This document shows positions 10,673 to 30,038 of a stretch of DNA of 30,038 nucleotides, in pieces. Each line of letters begins with the position of its first letter. Within the stretch, counting starts at the first letter, position 1. The notes under the pieces were generated by a model. It worked only from the letters and a program-made list of their open reading frames with translations, did not search any database and had not been told where the DNA came from. Source of the DNA: a virus. Made by a program: the position numbers and the translations under genes. The stretch covers positions 1-30,038 of IMG/VR virus record IMGVR_UViG_3300032282_000444; one strand, given 5' to 3'.

Positions 10673-11215
10673 TTACCTTTTACGTGCCACTTCAATAGTG
10701 CTACCAAAAATATGTAATACTTCAAATAACCCATCCAACATAATATTTGTTTTACCTTGTTCAATTTTACGAATCACTTTTAGTGATATACCAAATCTTT
10801 CAGAAAATTCGGGTTGAGTCATTTTAATTTGTTTTCTTTTTTCTTTAACAAAATTGGCTATTTTTAGCATATCGAATCCATCGTCATCTGATAGAATTTG
10901 TTCTAAATTAGGACTGATTAATAAAGGACTTATTAAAATACTATTTAACAAATAAGCACCATTATTTAATTCTTTTTGAATCCAATATCTTTCTCTTGTA
11001 TCTATATCATCATTTATATTTAAGTATTCCAATACATCAACTATTGGACAATGTCCTATTTGTTTAAGTTCATTTACCCATTGATTAATCTTATCAGAAT
11101 GACTTTGTTTAATGTGCTGTAAAGGACGTGTCATTCCTTGAGTAGATTTACCTATATAATGTATTGAATTTGTGAATGGGCATTTTAATGCGTAAATTAA
11201 TCTTTTAGCTTCCAT
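10673..11215 (-). CDS. GIY-YIG nuclease-like domain fused to Xre-type HTH, possible phage regulator
   Basis: This is the only minus-strand gene. I take the ATG at 11215 (180 residues), because the GIY-YIG fold begins there (LIYALKCP, then HYIGKS at about 19-24); a longer frame from 11257 adds 14 unlikely residues. Arg30, Glu75 in TRERYWI and Asn91 fit the domain's usual conserved positions. Residues about 123-170 form a helix-turn-helix (MTQPEFSERFGISLKVIRKIEQGK) like HipB/Xre regulators. A DNA-cutting or DNA-binding module joined to an operator-binding module, lying between late and early regions, suggests a repressor or a self-limiting nuclease. Its A+T content looks higher than its neighbours'. 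The function is inferred. Confidence 0.75.
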   Translation of the reverse strand: MEAKRLIYALKCPFTNSIHYIGKSTQGMTRPLQHIKQSHSDKINQWVNELKQIGHCPIVDVLEYLNINDDIDTRERYWIQKELNNGAYLLNSILISPLLISPNLEQILSDDDGFDMLKIANFVKEKRKQIKMTQPEFSERFGISLKVIRKIEQGKTNIMLDGLFEVLHIFGSTIEVARKR

Positions 11216-11234
11216 ATTTATATCTGTTATAGTA

Positions 11235-11242
11235 TAAAGATA
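11235..11242 (-). promoter_or_regulatory. Possible -7 box for the minus-strand regulator
   Basis: On the minus strand this reads TATCTTTA, one base from TAnnTTTG, and with its 3' flank (TAC) it resembles the boxes at 13329 and 17777. It lies 19 nt upstream of the ATG at 11215. No good -33 TTG is seen at normal spacing. Confidence 0.35.
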
Positions 11243-11291
11243 CAAAATTGAATCCAATTTCTATATATAAGCACCCTATCGGGTACGTTTT

Positions 11292-15356: not shown

Positions 15357-15607
15357 GAAAGGAACACAAACTAGTTGCACTATGTGCAGTATTACCTGTG
15401 TTAGCAGATTGGATTGAAGACCTAAACGACCAAACTGTGTTTAAACGAGATTTGAAACGTAAAGCAAATATGCTTATGCAGGAAATAAGAAGGGTAGACA
15501 ACCAAGTTTTACAGGTATACGGAGAGAACCGAGAGGAAATCTACAATCAACAGGTAGACTTGCAGATTAGATTCCGTCAATTTGTAGAATCAATAATTGT
15601 AGACTGA
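15353..15607 (+). CDS. Hypothetical helical protein
   Basis: This 84-residue, almost entirely helical protein has a hydrophobic N-terminal stretch (LVALCAVLPVLADWI, about 7-21) and then charged helices rich in Arg, Gln and Glu. It overlaps both neighbours (ATGA and TGATG). The N-terminal stretch is interrupted and more likely a buried helix than a membrane span. Function unknown. Confidence 0.65.
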   Translation: MRKEHKLVALCAVLPVLADWIEDLNDQTVFKRDLKRKANMLMQEIRRVDNQVLQVYGENREEIYNQQVDLQIRFRQFVESIIVD

Positions 15608-15978
15608 TGAAAGTAGTTTTTTATGATATCCCTGAAAAAGTGGAAGTAAGAAAAAATACTTGCGACATAAAAGAGTTTCAATTATTTTTAAAAATGCATA
15701 AAAAAATAACTATTAAAGAAATATCAAATGCTTTAAATATTTCAAAAACGGAAGTAGAACATTGGTTTAGAACTGATAATTATTTTGCTATTCCAAACAA
15801 AGATATATGGATTGAATTAAAAAATATATTAAAAATTGAATCAAATAAATATGATGCTTTTGTAACCGAATTTATAATTCAAGATGGAGTACACGAACAA
15901 TCAAACCGAGTTTACGATATAAATGGAATTGCTCCAACTATAACTTCAACAGGTGCAGATATTAGAATAATATTATAA
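15607..15978 (+). CDS. HTH protein with a C5-methyltransferase-like C-terminal segment
   Basis: This 123-residue protein has a probable helix-turn-helix at about 34-56 (ITIKEISNALNISKTEVEHWF). Its last about 25 residues (SNRVYDINGIAPTITSTGAD) read like the conserved RVYdxdGIaPTIt segment found in the target-recognition/C-terminal region of many cytosine C5-methyltransferases. A complete methyltransferase gene follows 9 nt later. It may regulate that gene, or be a remnant joined to an HTH by recombination. Its base composition is visibly more A+T-rich than the upstream genes, suggesting separate origin. No catalytic motif is present. Confidence 0.6.
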   Translation: MKVVFYDIPEKVEVRKNTCDIKEFQLFLKMHKKITIKEISNALNISKTEVEHWFRTDNYFAIPNKDIWIELKNILKIESNKYDAFVTEFIIQDGVHEQSNRVYDINGIAPTITSTGADIRIIL

Positions 15979-15987
15979 ATAATAGAT

Positions 15988-17259
15988 ATGAAAAAAATTA
16001 AAGTAGGATCAGACTTCTCTGGAGTTGGTGCATTTGACCAAGCTCTAAAGCGTTTAGGGGTAAACTATGAAACTGTGTTCGCCTGTGATATGGATAAGTA
16101 CGCAAGAGATACATTCATCCACAACTACGGAGAGCCAAAATACTATCCAACGAATGTTTATGACCGAGAGATTCCAACTGAGTCACTTGACATTTATATG
16201 ACATCTCCTCCTTGTCAAGCATTCTCATTAGCTGGAAAGCGACTTGGTAAGGATGATAAAAGAGGTGTATTGTTTTTTAACTCACACGAATTCATTCAAG
16301 TAAACAAACCTCGCTTTTTTATATTTGAGAACGTCAAAGGATTGCTTTCAGATGATGGAGGAAAAACATTTCAAGAATGGATCAATATGTTAGGAGGTAA
16401 ATCAGTAAACGGACTACCTGTGTTGTTTGCTCACGATGATGCAGTTCCTTATCACTTGTATTGGAAAGTTTTAAATGCAAAGCATCACGGTGTTCCACAG
16501 AATCGAGAGAGAGTTTTCTTGATTGGCATCAGAGATGATAAAGACAATAATTTTCAGTATCCAAGAGAAGAACATTTGATGAAAAGATTGAAAGATGTAT
16601 TAGAAGAAGAGATATTTGAAAAATATTATTTGAGTGATGAACGTATTGGAACAATTACAAATGCAGAACGTGGTATTGGATGGACTGATGCAGACACAAA
16701 AAATACTGCTAATTGTGTTCTTACAGGTTACGCAAAGAATCCAACTGATGGTGAATATTTAAAAGTTAAAAGTAATTTGGAAAAGTATTTTTTGAGTGAA
16801 AAGATGTTAGAATTGATTACATTCCAAGAAAAAACGAACGGAGAAATAGCAAATCTAAACAAAGGTGGGGAACGTGGTTCTGTATATGATTCAAATACTG
16901 ATTCAATAAGCTGTTTAAGTGCAACTGATTACAAACAACCAAAACAAATTTTAATAAATTCAGCAACATCTAAAGGATATGAGGAAGCAAGAGAAGGTGA
17001 TTCAATAAACTTTAGTGTGCCAAATAGCGAAACACGAAGAGTAGGTAAGGGAGTAGCACAAACATTAGATACAGGATGCAATCAAGCAACAATGGATGGA
17101 TTCAGGATCCGCAGATTAACACCAAGAGAATGCTTTCGACTAATGGACTTCCCTGATTCATTTACTTGGAACGTAAGCGACTCTCAAGCATACAAACAAG
17201 CAGGTAATTCAATCGTAGTTAACGTACTATACAAAATATTAAAACAATTGCCATTATGA
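15988..17259 (+). CDS. DNA cytosine C5-methyltransferase (orphan)
   Basis: This 423-residue enzyme has the ordered C5 motifs: I (GSDFSGVGAFDQAL, 7-20), IV with catalytic Cys76 (SPPCQAFS), VI (ENV, 114-116), VIII (QNRERVF, 171-177), IX (RRLTPRECFRLMDFP, about 375-389) and X (QAGNSIVVN, 404-412). The target-recognition region lies between about 185 and 370 and is more A+T-rich, consistent with exchange of specificity. It transfers a methyl group from SAM to cytosine in phage DNA, probably to evade host restriction; no partner endonuclease is seen. It overlaps ninG as ATGA. Confidence 0.93.
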   Translation: MKKIKVGSDFSGVGAFDQALKRLGVNYETVFACDMDKYARDTFIHNYGEPKYYPTNVYDREIPTESLDIYMTSPPCQAFSLAGKRLGKDDKRGVLFFNSHEFIQVNKPRFFIFENVKGLLSDDGGKTFQEWINMLGGKSVNGLPVLFAHDDAVPYHLYWKVLNAKHHGVPQNRERVFLIGIRDDKDNNFQYPREEHLMKRLKDVLEEEIFEKYYLSDERIGTITNAERGIGWTDADTKNTANCVLTGYAKNPTDGEYLKVKSNLEKYFLSEKMLELITFQEKTNGEIANLNKGGERGSVYDSNTDSISCLSATDYKQPKQILINSATSKGYEEAREGDSINFSVPNSETRRVGKGVAQTLDTGCNQATMDGFRIRRLTPRECFRLMDFPDSFTWNVSDSQAYKQAGNSIVVNVLYKILKQLPL

Positions 17260-24078: not shown

Positions 24079-24846
24079 ATGAAGTTAGAAATCAACGTAC
24101 CTTCTTCCCTAAGTGAAATACCTTTAAAACACTACCAAGAGTTTCTTAAAATTCAGGCAGATTCCAACGATGAGGAATTTGTCGCTCAGAAGATGATTGA
24201 AATCTTTTGTGGTATAACACTAAAGGATGTCGTTAAAATGAAGCTAACGAGCTTAAATGAGCTAATAGGACACTTCACAAAGTTATTTAGTGAGAAACCT
24301 AAGTTCCAAAATAGATTTAAGATAAAAGCAGGAGAAGGAGAGATTGAGTTTGGATTTATTCCTGAGTTAGAGGAGATAAGTTTTGGTGAGTATGTAGATT
24401 TAGAGAATCATCTTACAAGTTGGGATAACTACCACAAAGCAATGGCAGTTATGTATCGTCCGATTGTGAAAACACGAAAGGATAAATACGACATAATGCC
24501 TTACGAACCAAACAAAGACTTCCAAGAGTTAATGAAGTTTGCTCCACTGGATGTAGTGCTAGCAAGTTCGGTTTTTTTTTGGAGTTTAGGAAAAGAGTTA
24601 TTGCAGGCTACCCTGAATTATTTAGAGAAGGAGATGAAGAAGGACAGGAAACTATCAACGACTTTTCAGAAACAACTCAATTTGCAAAACGATGGGGATG
24701 GTATCAATCAATATATGGACTCGCTAAAGGAGACGTTACAAAGTTCGATGCAATTACCGAGCTTAGACTTACTAAATGTCTTACCTATCTCGTCTTTGAA
24801 AAGCAAAAAAACGATATTGAAAGAAGACAATTTGAACGTAATTTAA
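24079..24846 (+). CDS. Tail assembly chaperone, unshifted product
   Basis: This 255-residue product, MKLEINVPSSLSEIPLKHYQEFL..., shares residues 1-167 with a second product made by a -1 frameshift at the U9 run (24572-24580). The shared part is a helical/beta domain typical of tail chaperone G-like proteins, which bind the tape measure before tail assembly. The unique C-terminal 88 residues (SLGKELLQ..., GDGINQYMDSLKETL) end 8 nt before the stop of the overlapping frame. The gene has its own late promoter element. The chaperone call is by architecture and position. Confidence 0.72.
   Translation: MKLEINVPSSLSEIPLKHYQEFLKIQADSNDEEFVAQKMIEIFCGITLKDVVKMKLTSLNELIGHFTKLFSEKPKFQNRFKIKAGEGEIEFGFIPELEEISFGEYVDLENHLTSWDNYHKAMAVMYRPIVKTRKDKYDIMPYEPNKDFQELMKFAPLDVVLASSVFFWSLGKELLQATLNYLEKEMKKDRKLSTTFQKQLNLQNDGDGINQYMDSLKETLQSSMQLPSLDLLNVLPISSLKSKKTILKEDNLNVI
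24572..24580 (+). other. U9 slippery sequence for -1 frameshift
   Basis: The zero frame reads GTT TTT TTT TGG, which contains the heptamer T TTT TTT in the correct register (24573-24579). Slipping one base back continues as TTG GAG TTT in the frame that ends at 24854. No base run of this length is seen elsewhere in the tail genes. Confidence 0.75.
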
Positions 24847-24854
24847 AACGATGA
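24579..24854 (+). CDS. Tail assembly chaperone, C-terminal part reached by -1 frameshift
   Basis: This 91-codon frame lies in -1 relative to the chaperone gene. It is open back to 24486 but has no ATG or GTG; the only NTG is the TTG inside the slippery run. A shift there gives a product of about 258 residues (167 shared plus 91). The sequence (FAKRWGWYQSIYGLAKGDVTKFDAI, in parts, then LTYLVFEKQKNDIERRQFE) looks like a genuine conserved domain. Its stop overlaps the next gene's start as ATGA. This is the lambda G-GT type of arrangement, with two alternative C-termini of almost equal length. Confidence 0.78.
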   Translation: MEFRKRVIAGYPELFREGDEEGQETINDFSETTQFAKRWGWYQSIYGLAKGDVTKFDAITELRLTKCLTYLVFEKQKNDIERRQFERNLKR

Positions 24855-29120: not shown

Positions 29121-29272
29121 TAAAGAACATAATCGCAATGCTTACCATAGATAATTTCTACGGAGTATCAGAGAACATCGACATAGCAAAAGGAAAATAT
29201 GTATTGACACATTCCTTCCGTAAAATGACAAGACAAGAGATAAGAAAAAACGCAAGAAAAAAAGTTAACTGA
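29117..29272 (+). CDS. Small basic protein before the tape measure (51 aa)
   Basis: This 51-residue protein, MIKNIIAMLTIDNFYGVSENID..., has a very basic C-terminus (about 12 Lys/Arg in the last 20 residues). It overlaps the tail-tip gene (ATGA) and the tape-measure start (TGATG), so all three are tightly coupled. Function unknown; it could be a minor tail component. Confidence 0.6.
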   Translation: MIKNIIAMLTIDNFYGVSENIDIAKGKYVLTHSFRKMTRQEIRKNARKKVN

Positions 29273-30038
29273 TGGCTGAAAAGAAAGTAATAGAATTAGA
29301 CTTACAAACAAACTTAGGAAGTCTTAAAAGCCAATTAAAACAAGCTCAGGCAGATGTTCAGATTTTATCAGATAAGTTTGGTGCAACATCACAAGCAGCA
29401 GCAGAAGCAGCTAAGAAAGCAGCAGATTTAAAAGATAGAATCCAAGATGCAAAAGCGTTAACAGACGCCTTTAATCCTGACGCTAAATTTACTTCTCTTA
29501 CACGTTCTCTTGGTGGAGCATTAGATGGATTCCAAGCGTTTGAAGGTGCATTAGGTTTAATTGGAGTTGAATCAGAAGACCTACAAAAAACGTTATTGAA
29601 AGTTCAGTCAGCAATGGCATTTTCTCAAGGTATTCAAGGAGCATTAGAAGCAAAGGATTCATTTATTCAGTTAGGTTCAGTTGTAAAGAATACATTTAGT
29701 GCAATGACTACTGCATCTAAAGCATTTCTAGTAGGTGGTATTGGTTTGATTATTGCAGCAATTGGAATAGTTGTAGCAAATTACGATGATTGGTTTGGGG
29801 CATCTAAAAAAGTAGCGGAGCAACAAAAAGTAATCTCAGAACAAGCAAAAGAACAACGTCAAAATATTGCTAAGGAATCAGGTGAGTTTGCTACATTAAT
29901 ATCTAGACTTAAAAACACAAACGAAGGAAGTAAAGAACGTGCCGATTTAATTAAAAAGATTAACGGACAATACGGAACTACTTTAAAAAATATTAAAGAC
30001 GAAGCTAAATTCCAAGAATCGTTAAACAAAGAATTAGC
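29272..30038 (+). CDS. Tail tape measure protein, N-terminal part (continues at 1-1177)
   Basis: The ATG at 29272 overlaps the preceding stop (TGATG). Residues 1-65 are a charged, Ala-rich coiled coil (LGSLKSQLKQAQADVQIL). A hydrophobic segment at about 151-169 (AFLVGGIGLIIAAIGIVVA) is typical of tape measures, which may insert in the host membrane during DNA delivery. The frame remains open to the window end and continues at window base 2, giving 606 residues in the circular genome. The duplicated bases 29916-30038 code the same residues as the start of the window. Confidence 0.88.
   Translation, partial: MAEKKVIELDLQTNLGSLKSQLKQAQADVQILSDKFGATSQAAAEAAKKAADLKDRIQDAKALTDAFNPDAKFTSLTRSLGGALDGFQAFEGALGLIGVESEDLQKTLLKVQSAMAFSQGIQGALEAKDSFIQLGSVVKNTFSAMTTASKAFLVGGIGLIIAAIGIVVANYDDWFGASKKVAEQQKVISEQAKEQRQNIAKESGEFATLISRLKNTNEGSKERADLIKKINGQYGTTLKNIKDEAKFQESLNKEL
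29916..30038. repeat. Terminal direct repeat, right copy (circular overlap)
   Basis: This is identical over 123 bp to window bases 1-123 and in frame with them in the tape-measure gene. It should be counted once when computing genome length. Confidence 0.95.

Follow-up and report, generated by a model that had tools for sequence, protein, structure and literature searches.

The viral genome record IMGVR_UViG_3300032282_000444 (IMG/VR), which was analysed over its whole length of 30,038 nt and is referred to here as the window, contains a gene in which two overlapping reading frames remain open downstream of a run of T residues. The question raised by this locus is whether one stretch of DNA supplies two alternative endings to the same protein and, if so, by what means the frame is switched. 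An earlier note on this DNA had proposed a programmed -1 frameshift in a chaperone gene, with two C-termini of equal length.

Reading frames at the slip site

The features of the locus are listed in Table 1. The nine T residues, with the slippery heptamer in register, were read directly from the window, where they constitute the longest A/T homopolymer. The zero frame crosses the site as GTT TTT TTT TGG, and the zero-frame codons of the heptamer occupy positions 24574-76 and 24577-79. ORF reading also bore out the description of the -1 frame given in the note, i.e. that it is open from 24486 to 24854 without ATG or GTG and that its stop overlaps the next start. The stops of the two frames are 8 nt apart, the unshifted one lying 264 nt from the slip site, and the shifted product would comprise 258 aa (167+91), as compared with 255 aa for the unshifted one. 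When the -1 protein was recoded synonymously, the zero frame stayed open in 5e-5 of trials; with recoding of the zero-frame protein, the -1 frame stayed open in 5e-4. The two frames are therefore open together more than would be expected by chance.

Table 1. Positions of the slip site, the two reading frames and the next gene in the window
Feature	Position	Strand	Remarks
Zero-frame ORF, 255 aa	24079..24846	+	Shared N-terminal part (167 residues) and zero-frame C-terminal extension
T9 run	24572..24580	+	Slippery heptamer T_TTT_TTT at 24573-24579
Zero-frame C-terminal extension	24580..24846	+	88 codons and stop
-1 frame C-terminal domain	24579..24854	+	91 codons and stop
Next gene, 151 aa	24851..25306	+	ATG overlaps the -1 stop (ATGA, 24851-24854)

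Conservation of the arrangement among related genes

Loci carrying the gene numbered 559, from IMG/VR, a genome collection and Nonlabens phage records, and 434 unique genes were compared using profiles of the shared N-terminal part and of the -1 domain. The sample was collected by similarity to the window gene, and thus shows what relatives keep rather than how frequent the arrangement is among all phages. It is apparent that the -1 domain is situated in the -1 frame in 430 of the 434 genes; the others are three genes cut by contig ends and one designated L040. The -1 frame, which had been said to look conserved, is indeed so, and none of the 434 unique genes combined an interrupted -1 frame with a conserved zero frame, the finding that the note had named as evidence against its reading. 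At the sequence level, then, a conserved -1 shift with a shared N-terminus, as in genes of the G/GT type, was found.

A slippery heptamer in register inside the overlap, conforming to the X_XXY_YYZ pattern for -1 frameshifting, was observed in 429 of the 430 genes: U_UUU_UUU in 426 and A_AAU_UUU in three members of a single clade (L361, L373 and L397). The runs in the T-type genes (n=426) comprised T9 in 386, T10 in 31, T8 in four, T7 in four and T12 in one. The sites of the three-member clade (A_AAT_TTT in the DNA) fit the canonical heptamer pattern with no homopolymer, since no run there exceeds four, and both frames are still open and conserved. Given that TTC accounts for 35% of the Phe codons upstream of the site, the all-T slip site does not reflect codon bias. 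The ATGA overlap of the -1 stop with the next start, seen in the window, was also found in 218 of 288 relatives examined, and so the translation of the next gene may be coupled to shifted ribosomes.

Two genes depart from the pattern. L203 retains an intact T9, but its upstream ORF is broken: near 2330-2461, the N-terminal ORF closes approximately 150 nt before the intact T9 and -1 domain, which represents either a broken gene or an assembly error. L040 (478-1242) is the sole gene whose T10 fuses the -1 domain in frame, through either a sequencing error or a natural one-base insertion.

The sole annotated phage matches were the cultured Nonlabens phages P12024L and P12024S, which carry a distant relative of the gene; P12024L has an identical T9. 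No match was found among annotated phages with the -1 domain alone as query, and the matches in the genome collection were two contigs of one Winogradskyella MAG.

Selection in both reading frames

Substitutions in independent close pairs were sorted according to what they do in the zero and the -1 frame, and their rates were expressed relative to that of synonymous changes upstream. In 132 pairs, changes silent in the -1 frame and replacing in the zero frame (SN) occurred at 0.375 (0.333-0.421) of the synonymous rate, and those replacing in the -1 frame and silent in the zero frame (NS) at 0.161 (0.138-0.188). The value for changes replacing in both frames (NN) was 0.094, and that for changes silent in both (SS) was 1.95, the latter class being small (27 expected). 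As SS changes were not reduced, constraint at the level of the RNA is not the explanation. Zero-frame stops with a silent effect in the -1 frame were created at 0.032, and the converse -1 stops at 0.014. In the unused third frame, which served as a control, stop creation was 0.413, and silent changes were no commoner than replacing ones (0.25 and 0.385). A smaller set of 95 pairs yielded SN, NS and SS values of 0.37, 0.14 and 2.26, respectively. Zero-frame replacements were, moreover, more conservative than opportunity would provide, with none of 2000 resamples as high.

Because SN changes, NS changes and zero-frame stops all fall below their controls, both C-terminal endings are, as judged from these substitution patterns, under purifying selection, and the check that the earlier note had proposed, i.e. 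a search for such selection in both frames across homologues, gave a positive result. Codon-position diversity upstream of the site was 0.105, 0.061 and 0.345, so that variation is concentrated at position 3. In the overlap it was low at all three positions (0.079, 0.165 and 0.099), and the -1 wobble position, which is position 2 of the zero frame, was at half its expected diversity. Constraint on the zero frame peaked over the initial 15 codons (0.12) and relaxed further along (0.35-0.59); it was present both in long-tail pairs (0.35) and in shorter-tail pairs (0.39). Residues F35, W41 and L71 of the -1 domain were invariant in 65 relatives.

It might be supposed that only the -1 domain is functional and that the zero-frame tail is a passive by-product, held open by chance. 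The -1 frame is the more constrained of the two (0.16 vs 0.375), the length of the zero-frame tail varies from 16 to 95 codons, and the GDGI of the zero frame mirrors a WGW motif of the -1 frame, all of which would fit a passive tail. Such a tail would not, however, account for SN changes being 2.7 times rarer than synonymous ones, nor for zero-frame stops being approximately 13 times rarer than third-frame stops, when silence in the third frame has no such effect; this supposition is accordingly considered very unlikely.

Tail length and probable overprinting

The length of the -1 domain is nearly constant (77-94 codons), in contrast to that of the zero-frame tail. The overlap is 88 codons in the near clade, with a median of 63 codons across relatives. 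The zero-frame tail of remote relatives usually measures about 55-65 residues, vs about 85, and in the Nonlabens-like clade only 16-25 residues follow the site in the zero frame. The equal product lengths claimed in the note are thus a property of the window gene and its near clade, and do not extend to the remote relatives. An unrooted tree built from 122 N domains groups genes of the same tail-length class, with short tails confined to the Nonlabens-like clade. The -1 domain appears to be the older, GT-like part, on which the zero-frame tail was presumably overprinted, although an unrooted tree does not prove this order. We favour, with moderate confidence, the view that this is a large and widespread family of uncultured phages in which frameshifting in a tail-chaperone-like gene determines which of two dedicated, similarly sized C-terminal domains is made, the unshifted protein carrying its own partner-binding, overprinted tail. 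If so, the unshifted protein would not be a truncated form.

Proposed mechanism of the frame switch

The site, its conservation and the selection in two frames are direct readings of the DNA; from these we infer that ribosomal slippage takes place, and that programmed -1 ribosomal frameshifting very probably yields two proteins from this structural gene of a tailed phage. On U_UUU_UUU, the P-site and A-site tRNA-Phe would both slip back by one nucleotide and pair again. Translation that stays in the zero frame would give the 255-aa protein, whose end is a conserved helical extension of 88 residues, and translation after a shift would give, from the same DNA, the 258-aa protein with its different helical 91-residue domain; both would share the 167-residue N-terminus. 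In 251 of 288 genes the -1 frame contains neither ATG nor GTG between the site and codon 35, which argues that it is entered by shifting.

A stem-loop or pseudoknot, or an SD-like sequence, is a common but not universal stimulator at -1 sites. Downstream RNA structure was not enriched here (mean z of -0.06 vs -0.36 in a control stretch, n=120), and an upstream SD-like sequence was present in only 22 of 295 genes, so that no known frameshift stimulator was found. Downstream structure was likewise not found for P2 E+E' (PMC3091744), and shifting in E. coli is weaker at U_UUU_UUU than at A_AAA_AAG (PMC5009743).

The two products could also arise by transcriptional slippage, in which RNA polymerase lengthens or shortens the U9 tract by one residue and mRNAs in both frames are each read normally. 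Such slippage is known at long A/T runs in bacteria (reviewed in PMC5009743), and the predominance of T9 or longer (418 of 426 T-type genes) leaves some room for it. Nevertheless, four of the genes have only T7 and four only T8, the three A_AAT_TTT genes keep both frames open and conserved with no run longer than four, none of the 426 T-type genes has the heptamer out of register, and the flanking T residues are partly dictated by the encoded amino acids (V/L/I before, W/Y/F after). Judged from the sites themselves, the A_AAU_UUU clade and the T7/T8 genes are better accounted for by tandem tRNA slippage than by slippage of the polymerase, and the latter is considered unlikely. The same sites, together with the two-frame selection and the lack of early start codons in the -1 frame, support the frameshift reading of the earlier note.

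Separate initiation of the -1 product at an internal start codon, by translational coupling, is suggested by the annotation of P12024L, which has a separate ORF41 beginning at an ATG inside the -1 domain. This possibility was rejected as highly improbable on account of the lack of early start codons in most genes described above; where an ATG or GTG is present its position is not conserved, and conservation of the -1 frame reaches all the way to the slip site. As for a sequencing or assembly error, by which a true T10 would make the gene a single uninterrupted ORF, homopolymers are error-prone and L040 does have a T10 fused in frame. The -1 relation, however, holds for 430 of 434 genes, which come from many metagenomes, and for the cultured P12024L, the A_AAU_UUU clade has no homopolymer in which to err, and an error would not generate selection on the zero-frame tail. 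An in-frame T10 gene is thereby refuted, and the probability of such an error is considered negligible.

Predicted structures and homology

The AlphaFold2 model of the zero-frame product (mean pLDDT 77) contains a long helix through the shift site (157-188) and helices at 190-199 and 208-223, with the last 16 residues disordered or of low confidence. The -1 domain was modelled as all-helical (pLDDT 83). The fused L040 product, when aligned with the N and -1 fragments, was misaligned and was set aside; the two parts were modelled separately.

The window gene matches phrog_32199 (function unknown; E value 1.5e-12), as do 107 of 107 relatives, and nine of the 107 match phrog_166, a 'tail protein' (best E value 8.5e-5). 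One relative shows a weak match to the NCBIfam entry tail_chap_PVL (E value 0.029). A Pfam search yielded no match, nor did searches of the PDB by sequence and by fold, and direct comparison with lambda G, lambda T and PVL orf14 revealed no detectable homology. The BFVD matches were mostly uncharacterized phage proteins, including one from Nonlabens phage P12024S. Three BFVD proteins of 243-267 aa (A0A6J5N0W0, A0A516L5A8 and A0A6J7WJY4) match both the zero-frame and the -1 models, and some remote phages may therefore have both parts fused in one frame.

Comparison with known systems

The proposed mechanism is ordinary, being a tail-chaperone-like frameshift, and it is the anatomy, with both alternative C-termini under selection, that is unusual. 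In lambda gpG/gpGT (PMC5009743), as here, a -1 frameshift in a tailed phage joins a shared N-terminus to a second domain. The lambda shift, however, takes place near the end of the first ORF, so that translation without a shift stops almost immediately and GT is by far the longer product (the annotated G and T overlap by 19 nt), whereas the window gene has 88 conserved zero-frame codons and products of equal length. The mean distance between slip site and unshifted stop is 26 or 36 nt in known chaperone sets (PMC10885494), as compared with a median overlap of 63 codons in the present family. P2 E/E+E' also shifts by -1 at a T-rich heptamer (TTTTTTG), where RNA structure was not found downstream; its products measure 91 aa (E) and 142 aa (E+E'), no long alternative tail was reported (PMC3091744), and the E gene, unlike that of the window, is situated between the major tail and tape measure genes. 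ORF40/ORF41 of the Nonlabens phages P12024L/S (Inhavirus) have homologous N and -1 domains and the T9, but are annotated as two hypothetical proteins, and their zero-frame tail is only about 25 residues. Alphavirus 6K/TF (PMC2569925, PMC5580485) likewise combines a -1 frameshift and shared N-terminus with alternative C-termini, but these are unrelated membrane proteins of animal RNA viruses and provide an analogy only.

Known phage tail frameshifts thus add a domain to a protein that would otherwise stop soon, whereas approximately 60-90 codons are selected here in both frames across hundreds of phages, which constitutes a clear case from bacterial viruses of dual coding tied to frameshifting and implies a need for a separate tail on the unshifted product. 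The tails of 16-95 residues provide a natural series for studies of overprinting. Annotation pipelines miss the frameshift product, as is seen in the two separate hypothetical proteins listed for cultured relatives.

Genome context and putative role

The module that holds the gene includes terminase and tape measure genes as well as one that is weakly neck-like; the frameshift gene follows terminase, and the tape measure gene starts at 29272, about 4.4 kb downstream. Placement between major tail and tape measure genes, as in the G/GT type, was not observed, the identity of the major tail gene being uncertain. The module and the frameshift, taken together, point to a probable role of the pair in tail assembly, as chaperones, although the order of the genes is not that of lambda. 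The designation 'chaperone' in the earlier note is an analogy with G/GT, no homology to lambda G/T or PVL orf14 having been detected. The host of the window phage is probably a member of the Bacteroidota.

Positions 1-123 and 29916-30038 of the window form a 123-bp direct terminal repeat, and the tape measure gene spans the ends (29272-30038 and 1-1177), which gives the record the appearance of a complete genome with a circular map. Elsewhere in the window, an ORF at 10673-11257 on the minus strand appears by eye to join a GIY-YIG nuclease-like part to a helix-turn-helix regulator. A cytosine methyltransferase-like gene at 15988-17259 is preceded by an ORF (15607-15978) whose end resembles, by eye, a methyltransferase C-terminus (GIAPTITSTG).
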